Shown piece after piece: positions 4,564-22,772 of a stretch of DNA of 64,000 nt. This DNA comes from Thiobacillus sp. 0-1251. GTDB lineage: Bacteria; Pseudomonadota; Gammaproteobacteria; Burkholderiales; Thiobacillaceae. The position numbers and the translations under genes are program-made. The stretch spans positions 205,879-269,878 of the forward strand of contig MKWL01000011.1 of the NCBI GenBank assembly GCA_001899305.1. The letters are read 5' to 3'. The notes below the pieces were generated by a model. It was not told the DNA's origin. It worked only from the letters and a program-made list of their open reading frames with translations, and made no database searches. Numbering within the stretch: position 1 is the stretch's first letter; every line of letters starts with the position of its first letter.

Positions 4564-4566
4564 AGC

Positions 4567-6652: not shown

Positions 6653-7489
6653 TTATTTCCTGAAAACCGATGACTTGAGCGGTAGACCATTGCTGAGATA
6701 CGAATGGAAATACTCCAGATTGTTGTACTCTTCTCCACCGATCTCCATGGGCACCGCACGCACCAGCTGATTACATGCCGAGTAGCGCCGCTGCAGTGTG
6801 AACAAAGTGTAATCTCCACCTCGGAAGGCCGGCCAGTGCGTAGCCTGTCCCGGTAACATCGAGAGATATTCGGTACGCAGGATTTCACCGACATGATCTA
6901 CGTGGCAGCTGGCGCAGGAAAAATTGAGCTGGCCGCGACGCTGATAGAAGAAGCGGCGACCAGACTCGAAAGCCGCCAGGGCGCCACCGCCCTTCACCTT
7001 GATGTTCATGAGCATGCCATCCGATAAAGTCCGGGCATAAGCGGTAAGCAGGCCCATGGTATTCATGTCAGCTTGCTTGTAGGGCGCTTCGCCATTATTG
7101 GTACGACACTGGTTGAGCGCCATTTCGAAGGTGACCACTTTTTTCATGGTTTCATCGTAGTAAGGGTAATTGCCGACTACATTCTTGCCACCTCCGGGAA
7201 AGCAATCGGCATACCGCTTGCCGTTGTTGAACTGGGTCTCCCACAACTGGCGGCCCTTGTCGATCTCGGACTCGAACGGCGGGAACGCCATCATGTTTTC
7301 ATATTGCGCCTTGGCATCCGCGCTGAAGGCCAGCGCACCATGCACGTAGTCTTCGAATTTGATATCGGGGTATTTTTGCTGCACCGCCTGCACGCGGTTC
7401 AGCCGCTCCTGTTCCGGGGAGACGGACAGCGCTTCGGTACTGAAAGCCAGCATGCCCAGACAGGACAGCATCCATGTTGCTCGTTTCAT
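6653..7489 (-). CDS. soxA: Sulfur-oxidation c-type cytochrome SoxA
   Basis: 278 residues from the chosen ATG; a start 39 bases further upstream is open but would precede the signal peptide. The mature protein shows SoxA architecture: an N-terminal domain that has lost haem binding and keeps a Cys pair (C96 in DCFPGGG and C128 in NQC), then a haem domain with CASCH (C192, C195, H196), then C239 in RYSACNQLVRA. In SoxA this last Cys ligates haem iron and is the site of persulfide chemistry. SoxXA joins thiosulfate or sulfane sulfur to a carrier in the periplasm. No soxYZ or soxB is present in this window. Confidence 0.92.
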   Translation of the reverse strand: MKRATWMLSCLGMLAFSTEALSVSPEQERLNRVQAVQQKYPDIKFEDYVHGALAFSADAKAQYENMMAFPPFESEIDKGRQLWETQFNNGKRYADCFPGGGKNVVGNYPYYDETMKKVVTFEMALNQCRTNNGEAPYKQADMNTMGLLTAYARTLSDGMLMNIKVKGGGALAAFESGRRFFYQRRGQLNFSCASCHVDHVGEILRTEYLSMLPGQATHWPAFRGGDYTLFTLQRRYSACNQLVRAVPMEIGGEEYNNLEYFHSYLSNGLPLKSSVFRK

Positions 7490-7528
7490 GTTTCTTTTCT
7501 CTTTTAAAATCAGATGGCGGCCGGGCAT

Positions 7529-7903
7529 TCACAGCCCATAAACGTAATCCACGACTTTGTTGATCTCCGCGTCGGTCAAGATCCTGTTCTTGCCGAATGG
7601 CGGCATGGCCGTGTCGGGGTTGGCGCGCGTAGCGTCCCAGATCTGTGCGTACAGATCTTTCCGATTCGGGAAACGTGCAGCCATGCCTATCAGCGGCGGG
7701 GCGATGTTGGTGTTGGTCACCGCTTTAGGCTCTCCGGGCATGGCATGACATGCCAGACAATTTCCCTTGCGGTTATCGAAAGCCAGTTCCTGCCCGGTTG
7801 GTTCCGGCTTGGATGCCTCCGCGGCCTGCGCAGAGGGGATGAATGTGGCAGTGAGCAGAAGGCTCAGGCTAGCTGCCGTGACGATTGCAATTTGTTTCTC
7901 CAT
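7529..7903 (-). CDS. soxX: Sulfur-oxidation c-type cytochrome SoxX
   Basis: 124 residues from the ATG chosen (MEKQ). An in-frame ATG 33 bases upstream is also possible and has a purine-rich stretch before it. The signal peptide ends in SAQAAEA. One class I haem c site, CLACH (C49, C52, H53), has its axial Met at M100 in TAMPPFG. It partners SoxA, encoded 39 bases downstream. SoxX relays the electrons from SoxA chemistry to small cytochromes c. Confidence 0.92.
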   Translation of the reverse strand: MEKQIAIVTAASLSLLLTATFIPSAQAAEASKPEPTGQELAFDNRKGNCLACHAMPGEPKAVTNTNIAPPLIGMAARFPNRKDLYAQIWDATRANPDTAMPPFGKNRILTDAEINKVVDYVYGL

Positions 7904-8030
7904 CAGTCTTGCCCTGTCAGTTTTAATTAACGCCATAAAATTACGAACATTTTCTTCTCCCCCCGTACCGCGTGAGAAGAAACGGGAATAGATCCTGCCG
8001 GGGCGTAGCACCCTCGCCCGCGAAATGCGA

Positions 8031-8735
8031 CTACCGCATGGCGCCGGGCTTTTCTCCGCTTTCACTCAAGGTATGCATATCGCAGGGGCCGGGCTTCAAA
8101 TCAGGACAGGTCGTCGTGACATCGGTCGCCACCCCATTGACGTCGGCATGACTGAAATCGGCCTCATGCAAATTTGCGCCCATAAAATTCACATCGGTCA
8201 GATCGGCGAATAGGAAGCGGGACTCGTACAAATCTGTCCGGCTCAGATTCGCACCGGTCAGGATGGCCCCTTCCATATTGGAATATTCCAGCTTGGCCTC
8301 GGAGAAATCGGCACGAGCCAGATTGGCCATGTTTAGATTGGCGCGGCTCGATATCACTCGTTTCAGGTCGACGCCTTTCATATCCGCACCGCTCAGATTG
8401 GCCCCGCCGATGACCGCACCGCTCAGGTTGGCCTCAGTCAGTTTGGCTTGATAGAGCGTGGCGCCGATCAGATACGAACCGGCAAGATTGGCCCGGGACA
8501 GATCTGCGTGGGACAAATCAGCCCCCATGAGATTGAGACCAGCCAGATCAACCCCGGCCAGATCGCATTTCACGCAGGCATTGGTCGCAAGCAGTTGATC
8601 GCGGTTGCCCCTATGCTGCATGGGTGTTTGGGCAAAGGCCACGTGCACCATCCCCGCGCCTGCCACCAGGAATGCAATGCCTGTGATCAGGCCGGCCCGA
8701 CAGAAGCGGGAATACCCGGGATGTGTCATCCGCAT
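8031..8735 (-). CDS. Exported pentapeptide-repeat protein
   Basis: 234 residues from the ATG that follows a GAGGAG Shine-Dalgarno. An N-terminal hydrophobic signal ends near VAFAQ. After a CVKC pair come about 25 tandem A(D/N)LXX pentapeptides (ADLSHADLSRANLAGS and so on), predicted to form a right-handed quadrilateral beta-helix. The tail holds two further Cys in TTTCPDLKPGPCDMH. Exported pentapeptide proteins have no general function. Here it lies between the propeller-enzyme genes and soxX, suggesting a scaffold or maturation role; that is inference. Confidence 0.88.
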   Translation of the reverse strand: MRMTHPGYSRFCRAGLITGIAFLVAGAGMVHVAFAQTPMQHRGNRDQLLATNACVKCDLAGVDLAGLNLMGADLSHADLSRANLAGSYLIGATLYQAKLTEANLSGAVIGGANLSGADMKGVDLKRVISSRANLNMANLARADFSEAKLEYSNMEGAILTGANLSRTDLYESRFLFADLTDVNFMGANLHEADFSHADVNGVATDVTTTCPDLKPGPCDMHTLSESGEKPGAMR

Positions 8736-8835
8736 GTCTGCTCTCCTCTCCGGCACTAGCCGCCGATACCTGCCAGTGCCGGTAAGCACAGACCGTCATG
8801 CAGTTGCAGATACATCATGATTCCAGAACCGCGGC

Positions 8836-9303
8836 TCAATGCTTTCCCGCGTGATCCGCCTTCATGTCGCCCAGCAGATAACGAATTTGCAAAGGCTTCT
8901 GCCCCTTCATGGTCACGGTCAGGAGGATCCTGGTACCGGCAACAAGCCTGATCCGGGAATCTTTTCCAACCAGTTCGTTGGCGCCGGCCGGATTCAATTT
9001 CACCGTCATGGCTTGCGTGCCCGCGATGAAACGCAGGCTGGCGCTCGCGCCCTGGGTCGATTGGGGCGTATCGCCATGGTCGGTGACCCATACCTGGGCC
9101 TCGCCGTCCTTCACCACCAATTCGAAGTGGTACATCTCCGCCATGCGTAGCAAACCGCCGTGGTCGCCCTTGATGGTGGCCAGATATTCGTTACTGTGCG
9201 CCAGTGCCGCAGTCGGCAGGCCCAACGCAGATAACAGCCCCAGGCAGGCAATCCAGCGCCTTGCCGAGGCAAATGTATTCACGATTGTTCTTTGAATATT
9301 CAT
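8836..9303 (-). CDS. Unknown periplasmic protein in the thiocyanate/sox operon
   Basis: 155 residues with a clear signal peptide (cleavage near ALAHS). The mature part is beta-rich: EYLATIKGDHGGLLRMAEMYHFELVVKDG, then EAQVWVTDHGD, MTVKLNPAGANELVG and RILLTVTMKGQKPLQIRYLL. It has several His (HGG, YHF, DHGD, KADHAGKH) and no Cys in the mature region. I do not recognise the family; the fold could be an immunoglobulin-like or CopC-like metal-binding domain. It follows the propeller enzyme by 84 bases. Confidence 0.75.
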   Translation of the reverse strand: MNIQRTIVNTFASARRWIACLGLLSALGLPTAALAHSNEYLATIKGDHGGLLRMAEMYHFELVVKDGEAQVWVTDHGDTPQSTQGASASLRFIAGTQAMTVKLNPAGANELVGKDSRIRLVAGTRILLTVTMKGQKPLQIRYLLGDMKADHAGKH

Positions 9304-9387: not shown

Positions 9388-10854
9388 TTACACCGAAGTA
9401 CTGCGCGAGAACTTCATGCCTTCCCAGCTTTCCGGTACCACGACGTGGTCGTGCATGCCACCGGGAACGGCAATACGGGCTTCGATCTTGTCGGTCTCGA
9501 CGTTAAGAATCACCAAGCCGGACTGTCCGCCCTGGTTGCCGCTGTACACCGTAGTCATGTATTTGCCGTCAACCGAGCAGTCGCAGGTGTGGGGATCCGG
9601 GCCGGTATCCCACTTCGCGGTCACCTTCCAGGTTTTGGTATCCACCTTGCAGATGTAGCCATTGTTCGGCTTGCGCGCCCACATGGTGAAGTAGGCAAAA
9701 CGCGAATCCGGTACGTTGCCCATATGCAGCGGCAGATATTTGTCGCCGAACCCTTCGACGAAGGCTTCCTTCTTCCATTTGAGCGGATTCTCATCGGTCG
9801 AACGGTAGATCGCGATGTTGTTCTGCAGCACGTTGTTACATGCACAGAAGTATTCGCCGCTCGTAATGAAGCCAGCCTCGTGCAAAGGCGTAAGCACAGA
9901 CGGCACGGAGAAGGTCCAGGTGAAACCCTGTTGCCGGGTCAGCGGGAAATTGTCAGGCGCGCCCTTGGCGGTGGAAAGCAGCGCAACCACTTCCCAGGTG
10001 CGCGTATCGACGATCGCGCAGCAACCGAGGCGGCGAATCAGGATCGCCCCAAACGGCAGGGTCGGATGCCAGGTAAAGGCATCCACGAAGACCGCAGTCG
10101 GGTCGGCCGGCATCAACTCTTCGCCCAGCATCGCCTCGTGGGTCGTCTTCATGCCTTTGCGGCCCACGTAGTCGAACTTGCCGGTGGTGGCATCGGGGAA
10201 GATATGGCTGATGTGAAGCTGTCGCTTGACGGGATCGTAATCGGCACGGAAGGCCTTGACGATTTTCGGGTTGTCATCGATGGTGGTGATCAGCACCATG
10301 TCCTTCTGGCCATCCGCAAACGCGACATACTTGTTGGCGTTTTCGCCCACACCGATGGACACGTGCACCCCCAGCGACATACCCGTGGTCACGCCGATGT
10401 CGTTGACCACTTCGATGTGGTTTTGCTTGCCGCTACCGTCGTAGCGCATCTTGAACATCTTGAAATCGCCACGATCGCGCCATTCGGGGGAGTTCTCGTT
10501 GACATAAGGCGTCCCGGGCGGCTGCATGGTCTGGTAAAAGTCGAATCCCTTGTAAGGATCGGCCGAGGGCATGGCCGCGATGTGGTGCGGGATGGGCATG
10601 TTGACGCCCGCCAGGCCGTAGTTGTACCAAGCCAGGGTTTCCGGTACGGCGAGGTCAAGCGCCTGCACGTAGCCGCCGTACTTGCTCGGCAGCAGCACGA
10701 CGTTACGATCGAATTTCTTGAAAAAATCGGCCTGCGCTTCGTTGAGCGGATCGTGGCGAGCCGCCAAGGCGCTCCCCGAACCCAAAACACCTGCTGCCCC
10801 GGCCATGCCGGCAGCGAGCGAACCTTGTATGAACTGCCTTCTGGAAATACTCAT
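9388..10854 (-). CDS. Candidate copper-dependent thiocyanate dehydrogenase (Tat-exported seven-bladed propeller)
   Basis: 488 residues. A Tat signal (SRRQFIQG then a hydrophobic stretch to ALAAR) is followed by beta-propeller repeats. Candidate copper and catalytic residues are K58, H90, H164, D258, H325, H377, H422 and H468. As I recall it, the tri-copper enzyme of Thioalkalivibrio uses Lys103, His135, His206, Asp314, His381, His437, His482 and His528. The spacings K-32-H, D-67-H and H-45-H-46-H agree. That enzyme oxidises thiocyanate to cyanate plus sulfur in the periplasm. Alternatives are a nitrous-oxide-reductase-like or a methanethiol-oxidase/selenium-binding-type propeller. An AAGGAG Shine-Dalgarno supports the start. 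It is the second gene of a seven-gene operon. Confidence 0.8.
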   Translation of the reverse strand: MSISRRQFIQGSLAAGMAGAAGVLGSGSALAARHDPLNEAQADFFKKFDRNVVLLPSKYGGYVQALDLAVPETLAWYNYGLAGVNMPIPHHIAAMPSADPYKGFDFYQTMQPPGTPYVNENSPEWRDRGDFKMFKMRYDGSGKQNHIEVVNDIGVTTGMSLGVHVSIGVGENANKYVAFADGQKDMVLITTIDDNPKIVKAFRADYDPVKRQLHISHIFPDATTGKFDYVGRKGMKTTHEAMLGEELMPADPTAVFVDAFTWHPTLPFGAILIRRLGCCAIVDTRTWEVVALLSTAKGAPDNFPLTRQQGFTWTFSVPSVLTPLHEAGFITSGEYFCACNNVLQNNIAIYRSTDENPLKWKKEAFVEGFGDKYLPLHMGNVPDSRFAYFTMWARKPNNGYICKVDTKTWKVTAKWDTGPDPHTCDCSVDGKYMTTVYSGNQGGQSGLVILNVETDKIEARIAVPGGMHDHVVVPESWEGMKFSRSTSV

Positions 10855-10905: not shown

Positions 10906-11559
10906 TCAGATGTCGCCTTTCTTCCAGTCCTGCGGGCCGACGAAGACCTTTTCGATCGTGCCGTTGGCCGACAACAGGAAGCTGGTCGGCAAGCCGCGAA
11001 TCCCCAGACGCGTAGAAACGCCTTTAGGGCTCAACACATCGTTGGGCGCCACATACATATCCCGCTTCAAGTTATGCTCCTTCTTGATCAGGCGCATGGT
11101 TGCCGCCGTGGAAGGAATCGCCTGCGTCGGGCCGCCCATCAGGTGCGTGCCCATCGTGTCCGCATTGATAAAGACGACGTTCGCGCCGCGTCCATATTTG
11201 TCCACGAATACCTCGGTCTTTTTCAGCTGTTCAACCGAAACCGGCACCGCAGAGATGAAAAACACCACCAGCGTCCGTTTGCCTGCCACCAGACTGCCGA
11301 GATCGGCCTTTTTTGCATTGGAGTCATAAATCTCGATATCAGTCGGCATTTTTGTGCCGACCGCCATCGGTTTGATGAACACTTCACCCCCCACCTGCTC
11401 GGCAGATGGGAAGGTTCCATCCTTACCATCCGCCAACACCACGCTAACGGGTATTGCAAGCAGCCCCAACGCGAAAAGAGCTGGCCCCGCCGTGCAAAGT
11501 GCAGAAACGACGCGTCGCTTCCCCAGCCCACCTGATACCGTTGTTGCCTTAGATTTCAT
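10906..11559 (-). CDS. Thioredoxin-fold (SCO/peroxiredoxin-like) exported protein lacking the CxxC motif
   Basis: 217 residues. A long basic N-terminus and a hydrophobic segment to about residue 44 form a signal or anchor. The rest looks like an AhpC/TSA-SCO thioredoxin fold: a TLVVFFISAVPVSVEQL strand-loop-helix, VVFINAD, and the cis-Pro loop in LGIRGLPTSFLLSANGTIEKVFVG. The position of the usual CxxC reads SAVPVS, and the mature part has no Cys at all, so it cannot do thiol redox chemistry. It may be a structural chaperone for the propeller enzyme encoded 51 bases downstream. AGGAG precedes the ATG. Confidence 0.8.
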   Translation of the reverse strand: MKSKATTVSGGLGKRRVVSALCTAGPALFALGLLAIPVSVVLADGKDGTFPSAEQVGGEVFIKPMAVGTKMPTDIEIYDSNAKKADLGSLVAGKRTLVVFFISAVPVSVEQLKKTEVFVDKYGRGANVVFINADTMGTHLMGGPTQAIPSTAATMRLIKKEHNLKRDMYVAPNDVLSPKGVSTRLGIRGLPTSFLLSANGTIEKVFVGPQDWKKGDI

Positions 11560-11782: not shown

Positions 11783-11808
11783 GTTTCAGTGAATGTTTCA
11801 CGTTGAAA
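11783..11808. promoter_or_regulatory. Inverted repeat, candidate activator (UAS) site
   Basis: GTGAA-TGT-TTCAC (11789-11801) is a perfect 5-base inverted repeat, flanked by an outer TTTCA/TGAAA pair. It is centred about 90 bases upstream of the predicted sigma-54 start, the usual distance for an NtrC-family dimer. It contains TGTTTCA, a word also found near the two other sigma-54 promoters. Confidence 0.45.
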
Positions 11809-11845: not shown

Positions 11846-11875
11846 CAAAAAAACCGGTAGCGCAGGGCTACCGGT
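11846..11875 (-). terminator. Rho-independent terminator downstream of sodC
   Basis: A perfect 9-base stem (ACCGGTAGC/GCTACCGGT, loop 5) is followed on the - strand by seven T. It is correctly oriented to stop transcripts coming from sodC before the sigma-54 control region. Confidence 0.8.
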
Positions 11876-12112: not shown

Positions 12113-12727
12113 TTACATGCGCATATCGTTGTCCTGCTCGATTACACCACAGGCCACACGCGCACCGGAATTGCCGGCCGGATCGGAAAAATCGTCTTCT
12201 TTGGCGTGAATGACGATCGCGCGATTGACAATGGAATTGAGGCCGATCAACGCCAGACTCACACCCGGCACGTCCACGCTCACGTTGGCGACGCCGTTCC
12301 GATCCGCTTCAATATTGCCGAGGTCGCCCAGATGATGTGCCTCGCCGGAGGGCGCGCCGTGGACCCCGCCAGAAGGCGCGAAATGACCGCCTGCACTCAT
12401 TCCATCCGGTGAATCACAATTGCCGTTCACATGAATATGGAAACCGTGTTTGCCCGGCGTCAGGCCCGCCACGCTTCCTTTGATCAGCACGTTACTGTTG
12501 TCATGTTGAACCAGATGCAGCGTGCCATTCACTTGACTGCCTGAAATGGCCACCAGTTCTGCCGTCGCATTCGAGCCTCCATGATTGTGATCCATGGGAG
12601 ACGCCACATGATGGCCATGGTGGGAATGCTCTGCCGCACCAGCCTGCCCTATCGCCCCAAGCAGCGCGGCAACGGCGATCCGACGCATATAACGGGTTTC
12701 AAGTCTCCCGTTCCATCTGTCCTTCAT
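12113..12727 (-). CDS. sodC: Periplasmic Cu/Zn superoxide dismutase
   Basis: 204 residues from the ATG placed 6 bases after AAGGAG. The signal peptide ends near GAGAAE, followed by a His-rich stretch (HSHHGHHVASPMDHNHGG) that may gather metal. The dismutase core shows HGFHIH copper ligands, a Cys in NGNCDSPDG and a second in ARVACGVI that would form the disulfide, GGHFAP with HHLGDLGNI zinc ligands, and AIVIHAKEDD. It removes superoxide in the periplasm. It lies 160 bases downstream of the DUF302 gene on the same strand, within a block rich in copper-linked genes. Confidence 0.95.
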   Translation of the reverse strand: MKDRWNGRLETRYMRRIAVAALLGAIGQAGAAEHSHHGHHVASPMDHNHGGSNATAELVAISGSQVNGTLHLVQHDNSNVLIKGSVAGLTPGKHGFHIHVNGNCDSPDGMSAGGHFAPSGGVHGAPSGEAHHLGDLGNIEADRNGVANVSVDVPGVSLALIGLNSIVNRAIVIHAKEDDFSDPAGNSGARVACGVIEQDNDMRM

Positions 12728-12852
12728 CAAATACTCCTTGTCATCGAATTGAGTGTATCCAGGGCACCTGTTCGTGCACTGCAGGAGGCGCAGGCCATTT
12801 CCGTTCCCGCCCTCAGCAGCTTGCTACGTATGGATTTGAACGATGCGCCGAG

Positions 12853-12889: not shown

Positions 12890-13411
12890 TCAGAACCCAC
12901 CACTGGCCAAGCTATCCAGAATGGCGCGCAAGTCATCATCAAACTGCTTGAGGGTTGCCCTGCCTTCGTCTGTCAGATTCTTGTCGTTGGCAAGCAAGCT
13001 CAAAATATGGGCCGGACGCTGCATCATGACCGTGGTCTTGCCGTCATGCTCGATGAGCGCCAACCGGCATGGCGCAAACATCTCGAAGTTGGGCACATGA
13101 TGGGTGACGGTGTAGGCCTTGGTCAGATTGCAGAACTCGATGAGCTGAAGCGGCGGCGCATCGATCCCGCGCCCCTGCAGGCCTTCCTGCACATTGAGCA
13201 CGTTGATGATGGCGTAATTCCTGGCTTCGAGTTGCGAGATCAGCATATCGCGCACGGCCGCAATTTTGTCTGCCACGGTCACTTCGAACTTGAGCTCGGT
13301 TGCCACTACATGGGGTTCATCGGCCATGGCCGATGTCGCTGGAAAGATCGTCAGCAAGCCCAGTAAAAATAGCGTGCGACTGTTGCGTTTAACGCGGGAA
13401 AAAAACTTCAT
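12890..13411 (-). CDS. Exported DUF302 protein
   Basis: 173 residues from the ATG preceded by AGGAGAG. The signal peptide ends near ATSAMADE. The DUF302 domain follows: IAAVRDMLISQLEARNYAIINVLN, then LIEFCNLTKAY, a PNFEMFAPCRLALIEHDGKTTVMM segment and the LASGGF end. DUF302 proteins bind or sense small ligands in several periplasmic settings, but no activity is established. Two Cys (in EFCN and APCR) could form a disulfide or bind metal. A near-consensus sigma-54 promoter lies immediately upstream, next to the gene for the sigma-54 activator, so it is a likely target. Confidence 0.85.
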   Translation of the reverse strand: MKFFSRVKRNSRTLFLLGLLTIFPATSAMADEPHVVATELKFEVTVADKIAAVRDMLISQLEARNYAIINVLNVQEGLQGRGIDAPPLQLIEFCNLTKAYTVTHHVPNFEMFAPCRLALIEHDGKTTVMMQRPAHILSLLANDKNLTDEGRATLKQFDDDLRAILDSLASGGF

Positions 13412-13421
13412 CACCTTCTCT

Positions 13422-13443
13422 CCTGTTTGTTTCAAACAACAGG
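13422..13443. promoter_or_regulatory. Palindromic element in DUF302 leader
   Basis: CCTGTT-TGTTTCAAACA-AACAGG contains the inverted repeat TGTTT-C-AAACA between the predicted transcript start and the start codon. It shares TGTTTCA with sequences near the other two sigma-54 promoters, so it could be a regulator site or an mRNA hairpin. Confidence 0.35.
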
Positions 13444-13468
13444 CCGTGAATCGGCCCTGCCGAACTTG

Positions 13469-13484
13469 AGCAAACAGCATGCCA
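13469..13484 (-). promoter_or_regulatory. Sigma-54 (-24/-12) promoter of DUF302 gene
   Basis: On the - strand it reads TGGCATG-CTGT-TTGCT, one mismatch from TGGCACG-N4-TTGCW and with exact spacing. Transcription should start near 13458, giving a leader of about 47 bases. It lies just beyond the stop codon of the sigma-54 activator gene. Confidence 0.75.
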
Positions 13485-13498: not shown

Positions 13499-14890
13499 CT
13501 ATTCGCGCCGGCTTGGCGTGAACTGGAGATTGAATTCGCGCATCTTGCGCCACAGGGTGGTACGGCCGATACCCAATTCACGCGCAGCCTCGCCGATATG
13601 CCTGGCACGCCGCAAGGCAGCCTCGATCAACATGCGCTCGGTCTTGGCAAGGCTGCCCCCCTCTCCTTGCGGCAATGGGGCGGGGACATCGGCCTCTGAT
13701 ATGTTGCCCAGATGCTGCAACAGATCTTCTGGCAGGGCGTTGATATCGATCACCCCCTGCTCGTCAGCGAAAACCACCATTTGTTCCACGAAGTTTTCCA
13801 ACTGGCGGATATTCCCCGGGTACGGATAAGCCTGTACACAGGCCAGGGCGCGCGGCGTCAGACTGAGTCCGCTGCGCTTGTACTTGGCACTGTAGACTTC
13901 GAGAAAACGCGTCAGCAACCGCTTGAGGTCCTCGCCTCGCTCCCTGAGCGGCGGCAGATGCAGCCGGATACCATTGAGGCGGAAATACAGATCGGAACGG
14001 AAATGTCCACGTTCCATGAGGCTATCGAGCACCTGATTGGTGGCAGAAATCACCCGGATATCCACTTGTTTGCTCTTGTTCGATCCCACCCGGCGGATCT
14101 GCCGCTCCTGCAGTACGCTCAATAGCTTGGCCTGCATCGCGGGCGACAGGGTATCCACCTCGTCCAGGAAAATGGTGCCGCCATCCGCTTCCTCGAACAG
14201 ACCGGCACGAGAATCGGTCGCGCCGGTGAAGCTGCCGCGCACGTGGCCAAACAGTTCGCTCTCCAGAAGCTGCTCCGGTAGGCTGGCGCAATTGATGCTG
14301 ACAAAGGCATGCTCGCTGCGCGCGCTTTTCTCGTGGATGAGTCGGGCAACACGAGTCTTTCCGGTGCCGGTCTCGCCGGTAATGAGCACGCTGATGTCGG
14401 TGGCTGCCAGCCGTTCCGCCTTGATCAGGGTCGCGCGCATCTGCGGAGTATCGGCCACGATGTCGTCTGCCTCGCGCGACTCCGCCGTGGGAGGGCTCCG
14501 CATTGCGGTGGCGTAATTGCGCAATGCCTGGCTGGCATGGATTTTTTCCAGAATATCGTGTTCGCTGAACGGCTTGGTGAGGTAATCAAATGCGCCCAGG
14601 CGCATCGCATCGACTGCCGATTCGATGCTGCCATAGGCCGTGATCAGGATCACCGGCAGGTGGGGCTTGATCTGCTTGATCTCGCGCAGCAGATCAATTC
14701 CGGACATGTCATCCATACGCAAATCGGTAATCACCAGATCGTATTCAGCCTGGCTCAAGATCGCCAACGCCTGGCTGCCGCTTTCCGCCTCGCTGGTGTC
14801 GAAGCCGGCCCCCAGCAGCATGAGCGACAGGCTACGGCGCAGGCTTTTCTGGTCGTCCACCAACAGGATATGAAGAGGTTTGCTGCTCAT
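13499..14890 (-). CDS. Sigma-54-dependent response regulator (NtrC family)
   Basis: 463 residues in three domains. The receiver (about 1-120) has phospho-acceptor D56 and the K107 switch Lys. The AAA+ domain (about 145-385) has Walker A GETGTGKT (172-179), the sigma-54 contact loop as GSFTGA (219-224, a Ser variant of GAFTGA) and Walker B FLDEVD. The Fis-type helix-turn-helix (about 430-460) is AARELGIGRTTLWRKM. It activates sigma-54 promoters when phosphorylated. Its start overlaps the kinase stop by 4 bases, so the pair is translationally coupled. Likely targets are the three sigma-54 promoters in this block. Confidence 0.95.
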   Translation of the reverse strand: MSSKPLHILLVDDQKSLRRSLSLMLLGAGFDTSEAESGSQALAILSQAEYDLVITDLRMDDMSGIDLLREIKQIKPHLPVILITAYGSIESAVDAMRLGAFDYLTKPFSEHDILEKIHASQALRNYATAMRSPPTAESREADDIVADTPQMRATLIKAERLAATDISVLITGETGTGKTRVARLIHEKSARSEHAFVSINCASLPEQLLESELFGHVRGSFTGATDSRAGLFEEADGGTIFLDEVDTLSPAMQAKLLSVLQERQIRRVGSNKSKQVDIRVISATNQVLDSLMERGHFRSDLYFRLNGIRLHLPPLRERGEDLKRLLTRFLEVYSAKYKRSGLSLTPRALACVQAYPYPGNIRQLENFVEQMVVFADEQGVIDINALPEDLLQHLGNISEADVPAPLPQGEGGSLAKTERMLIEAALRRARHIGEAARELGIGRTTLWRKMREFNLQFTPSRRE

Positions 14891-17544
14891 GCCATCGCTA
14901 TCGTACGGTCAAGGGTTGCGTCGACCGGCTCGGGCAAGGGTACGCGCACATAAAACCGGGTACCATGCCCCATCTGGCTTGCAATGCGGATACGACCGCC
15001 CCACTCCTGCACGAAGCGCTGCACGATGGCGAGCCCAAGCCCGGCACCATGTGAGCGCTGGGTATAAAACGGCTCGAAAATCAGCTTGCGCTCCAAGGGG
15101 GGGATGCCCTTGCCAGTATCCGCCACGACCAGCAGAAACCAGCCGGGATAGACGCGTACCGTGGCATACACATGGCCCCGGCCATGAATGGCCTGCGACG
15201 CATTGAGCAGGAGGTTCCACAGAACGACTTCCAGACCATCCGCATCGAACAGATGGGACATGGCATTGCCCGAGATACCCGCTTCCACTTCGATCATTTG
15301 TCCCTGTTGCTGGACATGACGCTCCAGTGCTGCACACACCTTGTAAACCAGCGCTTCCAGTACCACCGGCTTGTTTGCCATCACACGCGGCTTGCCAAAC
15401 ATGAGGAAGTCGCGCGTCAGATTATCCAGCCGCGCCACCTCGTCCTGGATGATTTCCAAGGCATCGCGGCTTCGGCCCTCGTTACTGCGTTCCGCCTTCA
15501 ACACCGCCAGGCAATTGGTAATGGCCGACAGCGGATTGCGTACCTCATGCGCCACCGAGGCAGCCATCTGGCCCAGCGCTGCCAGGCGTTCCGCGCGGAT
15601 TTTGTTTGCCTCGGACAGTTTAAGTTGCTGGTTGATTTCGGACAATTGCTGGTAGCTATGGGCATTGTTGATTGCAATACGGACCTGGCCGGCAAGTAGT
15701 TCCCCCTTGGCCAGGGTAGCCTCGCTGAATTGCACCCGCTCCTTGCGTATCAACACCATGGCGCCGATCAGGCGTTCTTCGTCCAGTAGGGGAAACAGCG
15801 CCATCGCCCCCCAATGGCAACTCAATGGCTGTTCTGAAACCCATAACGCCTGACTGTCCGGCCACAGCATGGCACGTGGGCGGAAGTGGCCGTCGATATT
15901 ATTCAGGAGCCGTGCGCATGAATGGCCGTCACGGCACCAGGCCTCCAGTTCAGCGGTACAAGCCTTGTCGCTGTCGGCAAACCATCGGGCCGCCAGAGTG
16001 AAGCGCCCGGGTTCCTTATCGCTGGGAAGCCAGACCAGCGCCCCTTCACTGTCCAGCAGGTCGGCGATTTCGCTGCACACCGATTCAAGCACCCGCTTGA
16101 GGTTCAGGGTTGAGGTCATCATGGCCGATACTCGTAGCAAAGCGGCCCGGAATTCGTTGGCGTCAAGCCAACGATGGTAAAGCAGTGCATTGTTGACGAT
16201 CGTGCCAATCTCCGCCGCCAACGCCTGCAACTGGCCCATGCGCTGGCGCAAGTGCTCACGATCTTCCATGAGCAAGCGAAGGTGACCGATCTCCTGGCCG
16301 CTCGCGGTGAGCGACAGGCAAACCGACTGATCGACCGTGCCGGAAGAGCATTCGTAATAGCTTCCCCCCGACTCCCTCACCAACTGACAGCTTTGCCCAA
16401 AACAGGTGGCGTTCGACGCCTTGGCCCGGATGGGCCAGTGCGATCCCAGTTGGGGCATATGTCGCTCGAACTCGTCGATTTCATCCGCCGGGATGCTCAG
16501 GATCAACTCGCCACAGGGGATACCCAGCAGTTGGTTGACCGCACTGGACACCACATCGAGCGCATTGTTGAGATCGGGCGAGGTCATCGCCTCGCGCGCC
16601 ATGCGATTGCGTATCCTGAGTTCCTGATTGACGTTTCTGATCCTGCGTTGGGTGCGATGCAGCCGCCGGTTGGCGCGCATCAGAACATGGCGCGAGCGCT
16701 CAATGGTATTGAGTGCCAGCAGGAAACCGACCGACACCGTGACCATGACGCCCAGATAGAACATCATTTTGACCCCGTGCCACCCCCACCAGATGATGTC
16801 CCATAGTTTGGAGAAGTTGAACAAATAGGCACTCTGCGCAAACACCAACAGCAGACTGGCGATCACCAGTGCAAGGCTTTTCCGATACTTCCGGTAATAG
16901 CCGTAAAAAGCAACGGCATCGAGCGCATAAAGAAAGCTGGCCAGGTAATGCACGCTATGCGTGGTCGGCAGAAAACTCAGAGAATTGGGGTAGGTGCCTG
17001 ACATCAGGTTCGGAATGAATATCTGATACAAGACTGCCACCATCAATACGACCAGCCCGCCCACTCCCACTGTGAGCATATCGCTGTGAGTAGGCCAGCG
17101 TTTCCGATCTGAGAAAATATGGGCCACGATGCCGGCCAGGATCAGCCCGCTTCCAGACAGGGAAGAGACGGTATGGTAGGCGACGAAATGGTGCAGTTCC
17201 GGGCCCGGATTGGACCAGGCATGCAGGATGTCCATGACCCCCATGGACAGGAAAGCCATTCCGAAAAATGCCCCACCATAGCTCTTTTGTCTCGCGCTCA
17301 CGGCCAGAATCATGCCGGCGATCATCAGTGCCACAAAACCGCAGAATGACTCGATCAGCATGTGGCTCTTGATCTCGACAAACTGCTGCGCAAGCAGATG
17401 AGGAGAAAGATTTCCAAACAGCAGGATCGGGAGTAAAAGCAGGAACACCACCCACAGCATCACGCCGGTCTCGAGCAGGTTGCCCGCCCGCTCCGATTCA
17501 GGCAGCCCGATTCCACGTTCCATTCGAAAAAATTTCACCTGCAT
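14887..17544 (-). CDS. MASE3-GAF sensor histidine kinase, partner of the sigma-54 regulator
   Basis: 885 residues. Residues about 28-285 hold some seven to eight helices of MASE3 type (VMDILHAWSNPG with the HHFVAYHT motif). A coiled coil and two GAF-like regions (about 320-455 and 465-630) follow, then HisKA with H666 in VAHEVRNPLSAI, and HATPase with DTGKGIP and GAGLGLAIV. The first GAF-like region has a Cys cluster (C381, C386, C399, C409) and the second has C529, C537 and C543, which could sense metal or redox state. It phosphorylates the regulator encoded by the overlapping gene. The 82-base gap after the RND pump gene allows co-transcription from that pump's promoter. Confidence 0.92.
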   Translation of the reverse strand: MQVKFFRMERGIGLPESERAGNLLETGVMLWVVFLLLLPILLFGNLSPHLLAQQFVEIKSHMLIESFCGFVALMIAGMILAVSARQKSYGGAFFGMAFLSMGVMDILHAWSNPGPELHHFVAYHTVSSLSGSGLILAGIVAHIFSDRKRWPTHSDMLTVGVGGLVVLMVAVLYQIFIPNLMSGTYPNSLSFLPTTHSVHYLASFLYALDAVAFYGYYRKYRKSLALVIASLLLVFAQSAYLFNFSKLWDIIWWGWHGVKMMFYLGVMVTVSVGFLLALNTIERSRHVLMRANRRLHRTQRRIRNVNQELRIRNRMAREAMTSPDLNNALDVVSSAVNQLLGIPCGELILSIPADEIDEFERHMPQLGSHWPIRAKASNATCFGQSCQLVRESGGSYYECSSGTVDQSVCLSLTASGQEIGHLRLLMEDREHLRQRMGQLQALAAEIGTIVNNALLYHRWLDANEFRAALLRVSAMMTSTLNLKRVLESVCSEIADLLDSEGALVWLPSDKEPGRFTLAARWFADSDKACTAELEAWCRDGHSCARLLNNIDGHFRPRAMLWPDSQALWVSEQPLSCHWGAMALFPLLDEERLIGAMVLIRKERVQFSEATLAKGELLAGQVRIAINNAHSYQQLSEINQQLKLSEANKIRAERLAALGQMAASVAHEVRNPLSAITNCLAVLKAERSNEGRSRDALEIIQDEVARLDNLTRDFLMFGKPRVMANKPVVLEALVYKVCAALERHVQQQGQMIEVEAGISGNAMSHLFDADGLEVVLWNLLLNASQAIHGRGHVYATVRVYPGWFLLVVADTGKGIPPLERKLIFEPFYTQRSHGAGLGLAIVQRFVQEWGGRIRIASQMGHGTRFYVRVPLPEPVDATLDRTIAMA

Positions 17545-17626: not shown

Positions 17627-20600
17627 TCACAATCCGCTCGGCACCAGCCAGCCCTTGCGGCGGCTGGCCATCCAATGGAAGAGCGTCGGGATCACCAGCA
17701 GATTGAGCAGGGTCGAGCTCAACATGCCACCCAGCAAAACAATGGCCAGCGGCCGTTGCAATTCCTTTCCAGTGGGGTCGCCCAGAATCAGTGGGATCAC
17801 AGCCAGTGCGGCTGTAAATGCCGTCATCAAAATAGGGACCAGGCGGTCCACCGACCCTTTCAAGGCGATTTCTCCGGCATTGAGATCTGGGCGCATGCGA
17901 AGCAGGGATTGATAGCGGGATATCAGTAGCAGGCTATTGCGGGTGGCCACACCGAAGAGGGCCACCATGCCGATCAGCGAGGATACGTTGAGGGTCTCTC
18001 CGGCCAGTGCGAGTGCGAATACACCGCCGATCAGGGCCAAAGGCAAATTGAGCATGACCAGCGATACCAACGACCAGCTCCGGAACGCCTGATACATGAC
18101 GACCGACATCAACAGTATTGCGGCGGCGGACGTCACCAGCAGAGTGCGGGATGCACGTTGCTGACCCTCGTAGTCGCCGCCAAACTCAATACTGTAGCCA
18201 GGCGGCAACGTAAGCTTGTCGCGAATGCGGTCCTGGGCTTCCCGTACCACCCCGTCAAGATCGCGTCCTTCGGTGTTCCATTGCACCACGGCGCGGCGTG
18301 CGGCCCCATCGCGGTTGATCATGTAAGGCTCCTGCACCGATTTCAGCTCGGCCACTTCACGCAATGGAATGACTGCACCGCCAGGTGACATCAGCGGCAT
18401 TTCGCCCAGAGTCTGGATATCGCTGCGGGCTGCTTCGTTCACACGCATGAAAATATCGAAGGTACGGTCCTGTTCCAGAACTTTGGATACCGCCACCCCA
18501 TTGAACGCGGCACTCACCTGGGTAACGACCGCACCCGGGGTGAATCCATAGGCGGCTGCGACGGCCCGATTGACCCGGATATCGACACCCGGTACCAAAA
18601 CCATCGGCTCCATCTGCAAATCCACGACGCCCGTCACGCCCTTCACCGCTTGATAGACTTCCTGTTGCTTCTGCTGCAGCACCTCGAAATCCTGGCCATA
18701 GATCTTCACTGCAACCTGGGCACGCACCCCGGACAGGATCTCCGACATACGGTGGGTGATGAACTGGGACACATTGACCGACATGCCTGGAATCTGCGCC
18801 AGCTTGTCACGGATGCGCTGCATCACCTCGGGCACGTTGCGGGTACCCGGCTTGAGCGCAATATCGAACTCGCTGAAATTCACTGGCTGGGCATCCTCGT
18901 CCAGACGCGAGCGTCCGGCACGCTGGGCAAGGCTGGCAATCTCCGGCATATCGCCGATCAATTGCTCGATCTTGCGGCCCACACGCAAATTTTCCTCCAG
19001 TGACGTACCCGGCATCAGCGTGGTCGCGATCACCAGGTTTCCCTCGTGGAAGGCGGGAATAAAGGATCGGCCAAGGGACGGAATCACCAGGATCGCCGCG
19101 ACCAGGATCAATGCGGACATCGCGGCCGTCGGCAAGGGCCGATCCAGACAGGGTTTCAATACCTTCTCATAACGGCTGAGCAGCATGTCGGAAATGGGGC
19201 TCAAGCCATAGCTCTGATATTGCGGCCGCCGCCCCATGAGGTAGTAACTCAACACCGGCACGAGCGTGATGGCAACCACAAGAGAGCTGGCGATGGCCGC
19301 CAAGTAGGAGATCGCCAGCGGTCGGAAGATACGGCCTTCGATGCCCTGGAGGAAAAAGATTGGGATGAAAGCCACGACAATCACGAAGGTGGCGAACACC
19401 ACCGAATTGCGGATCTCACGCGAACCTTCGTAAACAATCTCCAGTGCAGGCAACGGCTCCGCCGCCTGCTTGTTTTCACGCAGGCGGCGCAGAATATTCT
19501 CGACGTCGATGATGGCATCGTCCACGACTTCGCCAATGGCGAACACCAGCCCCCCCAGAGTCAGGGCGTTGATTCCGATGCCAAAGAGCCACAGCACCAG
19601 CACACCGGCCATCAGGGAAACGGGAATGGCAATCAGGCTGATCGCAGTGGGACGCCAACGGAACAGGAACAGCAGCAGCACCAACGCCACGATAAGGGAG
19701 GCGTCGAGCAATGCGCCTCGCAGATTGGCGATGGCGGTCTCGATGAAACTTGCCTGGCGGAATACATCGGGAATCAACTGAATATCCGCGGGCAGGCTGC
19801 GCGCCAGATTGGCCAGTGCCTTCTCGACGTTGTGTGTGGTTTCCAGCGTGTCCGCGCCCCACAGCTTGGAGACGGTTCCGATCACGGCCGGGCCACCGAA
19901 GATCTGGCCATCGCCTCGTTTGACCTCGCTCCCAAAGCGCACTTCCCCCACATCCTCGACCCGGATCGGCTGTCCTTCGCGCATGGCAATCAGTGTCTCC
20001 GCCACATCACGGAGGCTCTGCACCCGGCCATTGACACGAATGAAATATTCCTCCTCGCTGGTGGGATAGACAAACCCTCCGGGCGCCACCAGATTGGCGC
20101 GACGCAGGGCCTGCATCACGTCTTCGCTGGATACGTCGTACTTGCGCATGCGAATGGGATCAAGCATCACCTGGTACTGCTTCACCCCGCCACCCACGGC
20201 CACCACGGACGCAACCCCCGGTTGGGCCAGCACCCTGTTGCGAATATCCCAGTCCGCCAGCGTGCGCAACTCATGTTCGCGGTTCTCGCCAGACCAGTCG
20301 ACCAAGGCGAACTTGAGCAGCCAGCTCACTGCTGACGTGACCGGCATCAATTGGGGCGCTTGGGCCGACTCGGGCAGTTGGCCCTGCACCAGTTGCAAAC
20401 GTTCCTGAATGATCTGGCGGGCACGGTAAATATCGACACCCCATTTGAATGTGATCGTGATGCGCGACAGGCCAACCGACGAGTTGGATCGGATTTGATC
20501 GATATACGGGGCTCCCTGCAGGACGATCTCGATCGGCCGGGTGACCAGCCCTTCAACGTCTTTCGTCGAGTATCCCGGCACTTCGGTCTGGATCTGCACC

Positions 20601-20737
20601 TGCGGCGGCGCAAATTCCGGGAATACATCTACCGCCATGTGCAGTGCGGCAAAGATCGACGCGCCGGCCATCAGCACATAAAGCAACACCACGGCCAGCC
20701 GGTTCTTGAGGGACCACTTGATTGCCCAATCAAACAT
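17627..20737 (-). CDS. Heavy-metal RND efflux pump (CzcA/CusA family)
   Basis: 1036 residues, full length for the HME-RND family, with twelve helices and two large periplasmic loops. The helix 4 signature [18 protein letters not shown] has the double Asp of proton-relay pumps. It differs from the AMVDAAIV form that I recall for the Cu/Ag pump CusA, so the ion is uncertain. It should expel metal ions, or carry another substrate, across the envelope with the two adaptors encoded upstream. No outer-membrane TolC/CusC-type gene is present in the cluster. Confidence 0.92.
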
Positions 20738-20752: not shown

Positions 20753-21913
20753 TCAGTGATGGTGGTCGCTGTCTGCTACGCTGGCATGATTGCCGGACAT
20801 GCGGTACACCCCTTCCAGAATCATCTTGCCGTCGACCACCACCCGGTCGCGCGGGTCGACACCCGCCACCTGGAGCCAACTCTCCGTTTCACTCAATACC
20901 GCCACCGGCTTGCGCAGATAGCGTCCGGGTGCAGCTTGCACGTACACGACCGGATCCAGCTTCTGACCCAGAACCGATTGGCGCGGCACCCAAGTTCCCA
21001 CCTGTCCATCCAGGACAAGCACAAGCTCCACCGTCTGGCCGGTGGCCAGCCCAGGCACGCTGCGCCCCAGATCCAACAGGAAACGGGCACGCTGCGTCCG
21101 GGGATCGATACCCGGCACCACCTCGGCTATCGGACGCTGCATCTTCACGCCGCCAGGCAAGGCGACCTCGACCTTGATGCCAGGCCGAAGCAGGGTCTCC
21201 TGGCCGGCATAGACATAGCCTTCCACCCACAATGACTGCTTGCTGGATACCATGCGCGCCACCGACTTTCCTATCACCACGAACTGCTTCATGGTGCGGT
21301 CGCCTGCATTGACCAGCGATCCGGGCTGCACGAACAGGTCGGTAACGAATCCGTCAGTGGGCGCCTCCAGGATGAGGTGTTCCACCACCGTTCCCTTGTC
21401 GATCAACGCGGCGATCTGCGGATCGGTCATCCCCCACCAGCGCAGGTTTTCCTTGGCGTCCTTGAGGTAATTGGGCAGCCGCCCCTCCTCGCGAAGAACC
21501 TGAAGCCGCTCCTCGTTTTGCAGGAATTGCAGATACCCCTTCTGGGTCGTGATGAACTCGGGATTGAAAATGGACACCATCGGCTGCCCCTTTCTCACGC
21601 TGTCGCCGGGGCGCACGAAGACCTGAACAATCTGGCCGCTGACGACAGTATTGACATCCAGAACTGCCTCGGCATTGGGCACGACCTGGCCGTAAGTCTG
21701 CAGCCGCTTGGCAGGGGCATCGGCCCTGACCGCTGCGAGCGTGATAACGTCTCCAATGTCACGCACGCCCGAGGGCAGCCTGACCTCGCTGGCTTCACGG
21801 CTGCGTTCAATGATCTGTTCGAATACCCCAGAGTCGCCGTGCGCATGAACCAGGGCGGGCATACTCAGCGCAAGCAAAACAATGGGAAGCGCCAATACCA
21901 CCTTAATGAACAT
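20753..21913 (-). CDS. RND efflux periplasmic adaptor (CusB-like), second of two
   Basis: 386 residues from the ATG of MFIKVV. The signal peptide ends at VHAHG. Barrel-sandwich halves (AEAVLDVNTVVSGQIVQVFVRPGD and APTDGFVTDLFVQPGSLV) flank a helical hairpin, followed by beta-barrel and membrane-proximal domains. The C-terminus is His-rich (VADSDHHH). The start overlaps the end of the first adaptor gene by 11 bases, and the stop lies 15 bases before the pump gene, so the three are coupled. It links the pump to an outer-membrane channel encoded elsewhere. Confidence 0.9.
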   Translation of the reverse strand: MFIKVVLALPIVLLALSMPALVHAHGDSGVFEQIIERSREASEVRLPSGVRDIGDVITLAAVRADAPAKRLQTYGQVVPNAEAVLDVNTVVSGQIVQVFVRPGDSVRKGQPMVSIFNPEFITTQKGYLQFLQNEERLQVLREEGRLPNYLKDAKENLRWWGMTDPQIAALIDKGTVVEHLILEAPTDGFVTDLFVQPGSLVNAGDRTMKQFVVIGKSVARMVSSKQSLWVEGYVYAGQETLLRPGIKVEVALPGGVKMQRPIAEVVPGIDPRTQRARFLLDLGRSVPGLATGQTVELVLVLDGQVGTWVPRQSVLGQKLDPVVYVQAAPGRYLRKPVAVLSETESWLQVAGVDPRDRVVVDGKMILEGVYRMSGNHASVADSDHHH

Positions 21914-22772
21914 GCGCGTCCCCCGAAAAACTGACCGTAGCCACCCCCCCATTCAGCAGCCCCAGATGCTCAGGCTCTCTGAAAACCTGTAACCGCACCC
22001 ACTGCCTCTGATTGACCGGGTTCACAAAGGCATACACACGCTGCACCTTCGCGGCCACCGCTATCCGCCCCTTGGCTGGATCGTTCACGTAGACCGTCGC
22101 TGACTGTCCCGGCTTGACCGCCGAAGCCTCACTTACCGGCAAACTCGCTTCCACCACGATTGCGCCAGGCTGAGCGATCGTGGCGATCGTGGTGCCACTG
22201 GTCGCGTATTGGCCGCCCTGTGTTCCGGCATTGAGGATCTGGTTATTGACCACATTCAGGCTATACAGGTAGCCTGAGATCGGGGCCTTGATCTTGATCA
22301 GCTTGAGCGGCTGGCGCGTTGCTTCCAGACGTTTGATATCCTCCTCCGACATACCGCGCCAGAGCAGATTCATGCGCGCATCGACCATCTTCTCTTCGCT
22401 GGTCATGGAAAATGCCCGGACAGCATCCATGTTGGCAAACAAGCCCAGATAGGTAGCCTGCACTGTCTCCAGTTCGGCGCTTTCTATCTCGCCCAGCACC
22501 TCGCCCCGGCTCACTCTTTTCCCGACGTACACGTTGCGGAGATTGGCCATGCGAGCGTTGATCTTGATTACCACACTCACCATATGACGGGGATCGATCG
22601 ATACCTTGGCCGGATAAAGCTTCGCCGGCTCCGCCTCCGTCTCTTCATCGTCATGATGATGGGCTGCGGCAGGCGCGCTAAACATGGACGAATCGGAATG
22701 CGCCCATGCCTGCTGTTGCAGACCAGTCAATAGACAAAACAACGCAGTGCAACCAATGATGGCGGGCAGCAT
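21903..22772 (-). CDS. RND efflux periplasmic adaptor, first of two, His-rich
   Basis: 289 residues, shorter than typical adaptors. After the signal peptide comes an acidic His cluster (AAAHHHDDEETEAEP) of the metal-binding kind. A lipoyl-like strand pair (NLRNVYVGKRVSRGEVLGEIESAE) and a hairpin region follow, then IKAPISGYLYSLNVVNNQIL and a beta-barrel; the end reads SGDAHVH. It is the first gene of the pump operon, about 35 bases after a predicted sigma-54 start. Tandem adaptors may form a mixed hexamer, or this one may act as a metal chaperone. Confidence 0.85.
   Translation of the reverse strand: MLPAIIGCTALFCLLTGLQQQAWAHSDSSMFSAPAAAHHHDDEETEAEPAKLYPAKVSIDPRHMVSVVIKINARMANLRNVYVGKRVSRGEVLGEIESAELETVQATYLGLFANMDAVRAFSMTSEEKMVDARMNLLWRGMSEEDIKRLEATRQPLKLIKIKAPISGYLYSLNVVNNQILNAGTQGGQYATSGTTIATIAQPGAIVVEASLPVSEASAVKPGQSATVYVNDPAKGRIAVAAKVQRVYAFVNPVNQRQWVRLQVFREPEHLGLLNGGVATVSFSGDAHVH

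Follow-up and report, generated by a model that had tools for sequence, protein, structure and literature searches.

The window analysed here, a 64,000-nucleotide stretch of Thiobacillus sp. 0-1251 (contig MKWL01000011.1), carries on its minus strand a gene of the thiocyanate dehydrogenase (TcDH) family in one row with genes for SoxX- and SoxA-type cytochromes, an arrangement that suggests where the sulfur and electrons of thiocyanate, a pollutant from mining and coking, go next. Our preferred reading, to which we give a probability of roughly 0.55, is that the cluster serves thiocyanate oxidation, with the operon's SoxXA taking sulfur and/or electrons from TcDH and loading SoxYZ without SoxB. 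Papers are cited by PMC number throughout. The three central genes are as follows.

9388..10854, minus strand: TcDH family protein, 488 amino acids, with a twin-arginine (Tat) signal and a seven-bladed propeller (alignment, PDB search, model)
7529..8065, minus strand: SoxX-type cytochrome c, true start probably inside the open reading frame (ORF) (TIGR04485, E 2.3e-25, over cut-off)
6653..7528, minus strand: SoxA-type cytochrome c with CxxCH (TIGR04484, E 1.4e-60, over cut-off)

A first-pass annotation, made from the letters of the DNA, had proposed ORF 9388–10854 as a candidate TcDH, a Tat-exported propeller from a betaproteobacterial-type genome; sequence, active-site register and fold search bear this out. 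The Tat signal is recognized over cut-off by both Pfam PF10518 and TIGR01409, besides which the Pfam and NCBIfam scan returned nothing but a weak formate-dehydrogenase Tat model, and no nitrile-hydratase-type (thiocyanate hydrolase) match. A phmmer search of the PDB gave nine matches (8q9x, E 5.9e-75; 5f75, E 2.2e-65), all of them TcDH entries or entries labelled Tat-signal proteins whose titles name thiocyanate dehydrogenase. When aligned by MAFFT with the stretches of 5F75 (Thioalkalivibrio paradoxus) and 8Q9X (Pelomicrobium methylotrophicum), the window protein has 13 of 13 active-site residues (as listed in PMC6504805, legend to Fig. 4) identical and in register with both: 5F75 K103, H135, H136, Q156, H206, E288 and D314 fall on window K58, H90, H91, Q111, H164, E240 and D258, and H381, H437, H482, H528, D529 and R544 on H325, H377, H422, H468, D469 and R484. 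The eight residues that the first-pass annotation had named (K58, H90, H164, D258, H325, H377, H422 and H468) are where it placed them, and its His, Lys and Asp residues lie on copper-site positions; the Thioalkalivibrio numbers that it had given agree with the published list, and its spacings of 32, 67, 45 and 46 hold, which at such phmmer E values is no chance likeness. All 13 residues are kept in 25 of 25 related loci with an unbroken TcDH, a count made without the fragment L028 and without L027, whose TcDH is spread over several frames; R484 of L021 is missing in the tree alignment only through cut coordinates, and the residue alignment has the R. An AlphaFold2 model from 18 sequences (alignment A1, 17 of the 27 loci) is a propeller with a pLDDT (predicted local distance difference test) of 75.6 and a predicted TM score of 0.80, residues 233–248, including E240, lying below 50. 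Foldseek of this model against the PDB lists TcDH at ranks 1–20 (best E 5.8e-39) and NirN at rank 21 (E 1.1e-12), ruling out another propeller family as best match. By its sequence, then, the ORF is a real and typical member of the neutrophilic TcDH clade, a known kind of enzyme (EC 1.8.2.7), and a candidate for three-copper binding and the conversion of thiocyanate to cyanate and sulfur.

The window is from contig C11 of a 3.66-Mb genome. Its TcDH is 99% identical to the protein of T. thioparus DSM 505, which marks the host as a Thiobacillus close to that species, in agreement with the betaproteobacterial assignment. We found 27 loci with TcDH relatives in the contig collection searched, in Thiobacillus, Hydrogenophilales, Rhodoplanes, Afipia, Amaricoccus, Pseudaminobacter and others. 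Within Thiobacillus, 13 of 56 genomes have the gene, and in a sample of the class 7 of 369 give a match (6 of them strong), each count including the window's own genome. In a 27-row tree, whose bootstrap is not fully settled, long branches set the clade apart from 5F75 and 8Q9X. Cyanate accumulates when Thiohalobacter FOKN1 degrades thiocyanate, and this strain has abundant TcDH but no SCNase gene (PMC6934394); an Afipia protein has been identified as TcDH, and a related strain, THI201, degrades thiocyanate and has a close relative of the Afipia protein (PMC8061750). Identity to the window TcDH is 79% in Thiohalobacter thiocyanaticus, 78% in Paracoccus thiocyanatus, 76% in Afipia sp. 64-13 (L020), 74% in a Nitrospira metagenome-assembled genome (MAG) and 58–59% in two further MAGs. 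To go by its title alone, Hussain 2013 reportedly expressed a thiocyanate-degrading enzyme from THI201.

Several of these loci are curious in themselves. The Nitrospira copy (L022:8001-9464) lies on a 151,760-bp contig of a Nitrospira defluvii MAG, with a redoxin gene present and no SoxA over cut-off in the genome, and reflects either a TcDH-bearing nitrite oxidizer or an error of binning. Another contig, labelled as part of a Rhizobium MAG (L003; G030:C52), encodes a 99% identical TcDH and is probably misnamed. Paracoccus sp. S-4012 (L027:8001-9453) has a TcDH match in three frames and a partial match to an RND (resistance-nodulation-division) transporter, with soxXA not found in the locus: a decayed cluster or assembly errors. 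A 58-amino-acid C-terminal TcDH fragment (L152:12736-12906) lies 3' of a full TcDH with a SodC gene in between; in Guyparkeria, a 52-amino-acid fragment lies upstream of TcDH (PMC6504805).

The SoxX–SoxA pair is probably tied to TcDH in function. Both proteins exceed their NCBIfam cut-offs, and SoxA C252 aligns (PDB alignment, position counted by hand) with Cys222 of 1h31, which we take to be the catalytic cysteine of SoxA. By tblastn, no SoxB, SoxY or SoxZ is found in the 64-kb window; the housekeeping soxXYZAB of this genome is on C20. We typed all 87 Thiobacillus SoxA matches over cut-off, assigning to the window type those with at least 72% identity to the window SoxA. Fourteen of the 87 are of this type, and they are located in all 13 TcDH-positive genomes and in none of the 43 negative ones (Fisher p 5e-13); the count includes near-copies, so that the p value overstates independence, and incomplete MAGs, 7 of the 56 genomes being without a SoxA over cut-off. 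TcDH and the SoxA model match are 1.8–2.1 kb apart in 13 of the 14 copies, and for the 14th (G030) the two lie on separate contigs, one ending shortly past TcDH and the other starting shortly ahead of the gene for a 155-amino-acid protein that follows TcDH in the window. In a SoxA tree of 98 rows, made without eleven loci repeating included genes and without the fragment L056, the 14 TcDH-linked Thiobacillus copies are a single clade (100/97) whose sister is the genus's own SoxA.

Linkage extends beyond Thiobacillus in differing arrangements: of 9 genomes from other genera, 6 have SoxA no more than 20 kb from TcDH (p 7e-10 under uniform placement, a crude model). Paracoccus thiocyanatus has soxXA beside TcDH, Rhodoplanes a divergent soxXYZA, and Afipia and a Hyphomicrobiales MAG soxXYZA; no soxB was seen in the fetched stretches of these four of the six linked genomes, and a housekeeping soxB lies elsewhere in the window genome, the Hyphomicrobiales MAG, Rhodoplanes and Paracoccus. 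Three genomes count as unlinked: Thiohalobacter, with SoxA about 640 kb from TcDH provided that C1 is the contig with TcDH; the Nitrospira MAG, with no SoxA over cut-off; and Pseudaminobacter, where the TcDH contig breaks off within a soxX-like gene and soxY-Z-A, lacking soxB, sits on a different contig, the join being unproven. (Its row L054 is labelled TcDH-linked in the SoxA tree, though the join is unproven.) Among further loci, L013 has soxXYZ after TcDH and L150 (TcDH 57% identical) has soxXA upstream, and no Sox link was seen in L014, L022, L015, L016, L027, L151, L152, L153 and L154, several of which run into contig ends. Two loci without SoxXA have, 3' of TcDH on the same strand, an ORF with a single CxxCH motif, which could be a cytochrome or chance (L014:11703-12425 and L022:15254-15658). 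On the SoxA tree, the linked Paracoccus copy is sister to the same host's other copy (98/92), and the linked copies of Afipia, the Hyphomicrobiales MAG and Rhodoplanes form a clade (100/99) far from those of Thiobacillus. SoxA was thus recruited to TcDH at least two times; further recruitments are likely on this tree but not forced.

We propose the following scheme. TcDH would make cyanate and elemental sulfur (S0) with two electrons, a first step that we consider very probable. Linkage of the genes, their co-occurrence and their separate recruitment suggest that the operon's SoxX–SoxA would then accept sulfur and/or electrons and attach the sulfur, as a persulfide, to the cysteine of SoxY. 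SoxXA normally couples thiosulfate to SoxY by oxidation, after which SoxB removes sulfate (PMC5328954, PMC6934394); here SoxB would not be needed, because no sulfonate would be formed, and a SoxY persulfide loaded directly, with SoxB idle, would explain why soxB is missing from the linked soxX(YZ)A sets of Thiobacillus, Afipia, the Hyphomicrobiales MAG, Rhodoplanes and Paracoccus. Such direct loading of SoxYZ with thiocyanate sulfur is possible, at somewhat under even odds. In the FOKN1 proteome, SoxYZA is abundant on thiocyanate without free thiosulfate, a role that the authors say warrants further study (PMC6934394). The sulfur may be finished by reverse dissimilatory sulfite reductase (rDsr) and/or SoxC, and the cyanate hydrolysed by cyanase; the genes are present (three DsrA over cut-off, on C18, C1 and C21, and one SoxC over cut-off), the fluxes being predictions. 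Sequence motifs suggest that a CusA/B pump, a CopC/CrdA-like 155-amino-acid protein and SodC would manage copper, and that a kinase and a sigma-54 regulator would switch on three transcription units. In its fullest form the idea is a tentative one: TcDH sulfur would pass through a dedicated SoxXA to a SoxYZ persulfide with no SoxB and no free S0, the device would have arisen more than once, and T. thioparus, the textbook example of the carbonyl sulfide route, would own as well the cyanate pathway that Youatt 1954 put forward for Thiobacillus and that was afterwards dismissed.

A number of observations weigh against this reading. The Thiobacillus cluster has neither SoxYZ nor SoxB, so SoxYZ would have to be borrowed; the exception is a MAG (L004) in which SoxY follows the TcDH-linked SoxA at a distance of about 2.6 kb. 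(This gene, L004:14441-14881, is cut by the stretch end and has its own sigma-54 box directly upstream.) Amaricoccus and MAG WY3 carry a full soxXYZAB near TcDH, and no SoxXA was seen near TcDH in Thiohalobacter, the Nitrospira MAG, G291, G213, G227 and G389, several of these stretches being short or cut. When unlinked rows are ignored, the linked SoxA copies outside Thiobacillus form one group against those of Thiobacillus. The linkage label needs 6 changes on the TcDH tree (4 of them forced by well-supported branches), which suggests that linkage was gained or lost repeatedly; shuffled labels average 8.8 changes, and 22 of 500 are as low as 6. Sulfur genes may also cluster for other reasons. 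On the enzyme's side, activity of the window TcDH is a prediction from its sequence, which is just 35–37% identical to the crystallized enzymes (153/437 to 5F75, 163/437 to 8Q9X), and two positions are replaced, Y164 by N119 and F436 by L376 (Thioalkalivibrio numbering first). Across the 24 locus rows, the first position is N in 23 and D in L022, and the second is L in 21, M in L022 and F in L045 and L046. Tyr164 sits on the proposed electron path to cytochrome c552 in Thioalkalivibrio TcDH (PMC9456337), and neither residue is named as defining for TcDH in the text consulted. Purified TcDH of FOKN1, a member of the clade, did not oxidize thiocyanate in vitro (PMC6934394).

Of the other explanations, the one that fares best has a working TcDH with the linked SoxXA as electron acceptor only, like CytC552 or FccAB in Thioalkalivibrio, and sulfur leaving as S0; we hold it unlikely. 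It draws on the passage of electrons from TcDH to cytochrome c in vitro (PMC9456337), on an acceptor for FOKN1 TcDH that its authors call as yet unknown (PMC6934394) and on the Thiobacillus and Paracoccus loci, which hold soxXA without soxYZ. However, L013, L051, L052 and L058 add soxY and soxZ, superfluous for a pure electron acceptor, and the cysteine that corresponds to Cys222 of 1h31 is retained in SoxA. Quite improbable is a working TcDH whose extra SoxXA handles by-product thiosulfate formed from thiocyanate sulfur, the linkage being co-regulation only. The authors of the FOKN1 study suggest thiosulfate formation from the abundant SoxYZA but detected no free thiosulfate (PMC6934394), and against it stand the five linked sets without soxB in their fetched stretches, with the housekeeping soxB found elsewhere in four of the genomes concerned.

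The window genome also encodes thiocyanate hydrolase, scnABC: the gamma subunit exceeds the TIGR03887 cut-off and adjoins cynS, two ORFs each match one half of the nitrile-hydratase-beta model with scores under the cut-off, and a second cynS lies elsewhere, so the search for a cyanate route that the first-pass annotation had advised turned up two cyanase genes. T. thioparus DSM 505 grows on thiocyanate as an energy source (PMC5248467). The same annotation's further claim, that the organism can use thiocyanate as an electron source, is plausible on the strength of cyanase and of DSM 505, but scnABC gives a second route, and because of it growth on thiocyanate alone would not show TcDH activity. 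DSM 505 was assigned to the carbonyl sulfide (COS) pathway at a time (2017) when no close TcDH was seen outside Thioalkalivibrio, and the cyanate pathway of Youatt 1954, inferred from cyanase activity, was called not valid (PMC5328954); its contig NZ_KB891333.1 has been named for its cusB pair (PMC6504805). We find that DSM 505 has a TcDH gene as well as scnABC, which bears on both the COS-only assignment and the dismissed cyanate pathway. Across Thiobacillus, a nitrile-hydratase-alpha family match occurs in 13 of 56 genomes, 4 of them also with TcDH; mutual exclusion of TcDH and scnC is thus unsupported (Fisher p 0.47), and cynS is not enriched with TcDH (p 0.36). The other nine of the 13 TcDH-positive genomes are without the alpha-family match (two of the nine are less than 90% complete), so that reactor studies scoring scnABC alone in Thiobacillus will miss candidate thiocyanate oxidizers.

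These counts bear on the idea that the propeller is a periplasmic copper enzyme for some other substrate and that thiocyanate is used through scnABC only. The changed Y164 and F436 positions, the inactive FOKN1 preparation (PMC6934394) and the scnABC genes themselves speak for it; we nonetheless consider it improbable, given the nine genomes without the alpha-family match, a clade that includes thiocyanate users or reactor strains (Thiohalobacter, Afipia, P. thiocyanatus) and the thiocyanate degradation reported for the THI201 relative (PMC8061750). Least probable of all is a TcDH for detoxification or nitrogen supply, which would suit the presence of cynS but not the linkage to periplasmic cytochromes, the sigma-54 boxes common to the copper genes or the use of thiocyanate as an energy source by DSM 505 (PMC5248467).

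The operon runs redoxin, TcDH, 155-amino-acid protein, pentapeptide protein, SoxX, SoxA (to 6653) with small gaps or overlaps, and 5' of it lie sodC, DUF302, sigma-54 regulator, kinase, CusA and two CusB. Apart from sodC and DUF302, these upstream genes together with redoxin make up the published neutrophilic-locus set. The remaining features are as follows.

8031..8789, minus strand: pentapeptide-repeat protein, conserved beside TcDH (Pfam; related loci)
8836..9303, minus strand: 155-amino-acid exported beta-sandwich protein with conserved His/Glu/Asp, weakly like CopC/PcoC/CrdA (22 of 27 loci)
10906..11559, minus strand: redoxin-fold protein, first gene of the TcDH operon (Pfam Redoxin; same gene in PMC6504805)
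11716..11731, minus strand: sigma-54 -24/-12 box before redoxin-tcdh-orf155-penta-soxX-soxA (motif)
11795..11808, minus strand: upstream activator palindrome TTYC-N5-GRAAC, about 78 bp before the redoxin-unit box
11853..11875, minus strand: intrinsic-terminator-like hairpin with T tract after sodC (10 such sites in the region against 6.7 expected)
12113..12730, minus strand: Cu,Zn superoxide dismutase SodC (Pfam Sod_Cu, E 1.3e-41)
12890..13480, minus strand: DUF302 protein, true start probably inside the ORF (Pfam DUF302, E 2.1e-13)
13469..13484, minus strand: sigma-54 box before DUF302-sodC, overlapping the first codon of the DUF302 ORF (motif)
13499..14890, minus strand: sigma-54 dependent response regulator, NtrC type
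14887..17544, minus strand: membrane histidine kinase with MASE3 and GAF domains
17627..20737, minus strand: CusA/CzcA family metal RND transporter (TIGR00914, over cut-off)
20753..21952, minus strand: CusB-like adaptor CusB1 (CusB model, below its cut-off)
21903..22772, minus strand: CusB-like adaptor CusB2 (CusB model, below its cut-off)
22817..22832, minus strand: sigma-54 box before cusB2-cusB1-cusA-kinase-regulator (motif)
22897..22910, minus strand: upstream activator palindrome before cusB2, about 78 bp before its box (motif)

Two of these proteins have been considered for further roles. The redoxin as sulfur carrier, an idea of PMC6504805, is left as a weak idea only, because the CxxC position (V-P-V-S in the window) is cysteine-free in every alignment row covering it, as it likewise is in the two redoxin proteins of that paper; a PDB search with the redoxin gave chance-like matches only. 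The 155-amino-acid protein has no match in Pfam or NCBIfam, and its model (pLDDT 82) finds nothing by Foldseek at E 0.001 or better (E 2e-3 at best, rank 1 an archaellum chain), so that its CopC-like character is a hint only; its alignment A2 covers 16 of the 22 loci, without L009, L011, L027, L012 and L017 (both with a stop at the coordinates given), and L019. On the plus strand at 4246-5385, genes for a cupredoxin-like protein and an FTR1/EfeU-type permease run convergent with soxA and are possibly another metal-uptake unit. Thiobacillus sp. 65-29 has genes for a BNR-repeat protein, a TonB receptor, TonB, ExbB and ExbD between sodC and redoxin (L010:1155-6978); a BNR protein and an outer-membrane receptor also occur in Thioalkalivibrio clusters (PMC5328954).

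The strict sigma-54 pattern TGGCAY-N5-KTGCW, which was fixed after the first site had been seen, occurs 3 times in 64 kb against 0.31 expected, always on the minus strand and each time before a unit of the cluster. Since the box at 13469 overlaps the first DUF302 codon, either the real start lies downstream or this box is spurious. The pattern recurs in 13 of 28 related stretches (some overlap; in L009 it lies inside TcDH only) and is absent from the other 15, a point to be counted, with its fixing after the fact, among those against our reading. Strict boxes stand before soxX in the Afipia and Hyphomicrobiales MAG clusters and before redoxin and/or cusB2 in L152, L153 and L154, and by a looser score 14 of the 23 loci for which upstream sequence exists have a box 97–173 bp ahead of redoxin. 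Of 20 boxes examined, 14 have the palindrome KTTYC-N5-GRAAC in the 200 bp upstream of them, 9 of those at -78 to -80, while 53 among 3000 background 200-mers contain it; the strict palindrome is missing at the DUF302 box, in L002, L025 and L018 and at both Afipia-type sox boxes. All three palindrome forms in the window are in the cluster (11795, 12860 and 22897), that at 12860 without a box. A wider regulon found no backing: in a genome scan with 94 sigma-54 boxes, among the 100 of 132 palindromes listed (the list reaching into C21) and compared by eye, a palindrome about 64 bp from a same-strand box was seen nowhere but at the two sites of the cluster. A further inverted repeat, TTCAAC-N2-GTTGAA, does not recur at other cluster promoters.

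Within the literature covered (open-licence papers; Tikhonova 2020, Kantor 2015, Hussain 2013 and Youatt 1954 stand outside it), we found no report of TcDH–soxXA linkage, and both the presence of a dedicated SoxXA beside TcDH and the arrangement of sigma-54 box and palindrome appear to be new. The operon SoxXA is a concrete candidate for the acceptor of electrons and sulfur from neutrophilic TcDH, left open in PMC6934394.

The window protein shares its 13 active-site residues and propeller fold with the TcDHs of Thioalkalivibrio paradoxus and P. methylotrophicum, and its Tat export with Thioalkalivibrio TcDH (PMC5328954), and differs from the two crystallized proteins in overall identity and at Y164N and F436L. 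The neighbours differ too: copCD, an ABC transporter, fccAB and tatA in Thioalkalivibrio (PMC5328954), soxXA in the window instead. With the Thiohalobacter thiocyanaticus/Guyparkeria locus (PMC6504805) the window has in common the redoxin, sigma-54 regulator, GAF kinase, CusA, the CusB pair and their order, whereas soxX-soxA after TcDH, and SodC and DUF302 between regulator and redoxin, set it apart; the available part of that paper describes no Sox linkage, and none was seen in L014 or the Guyparkeria-like L152. The Afipia TcDH (PMC8061750) belongs to the same clade, judged by the Afipia sp. 64-13 copy as a stand-in for that paper's own Afipia and THI201; in Afipia sp. 64-13, soxX-Y-Z-A lies upstream of the Cus genes, whereas in the window soxX-soxA lies downstream of TcDH. 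Set beside SoxXA of the Sox system, the window pair passes the same NCBIfam models and keeps CxxCH and the conserved Cys, yet it is a separate, TcDH-tied paralogue with no soxB or soxYZ alongside. ScnABC, whose COS pathway has been assigned to T. thioparus (PMC5328954), is present with cynS in the window genome and is of a protein family unrelated to TcDH, with other chemistry.

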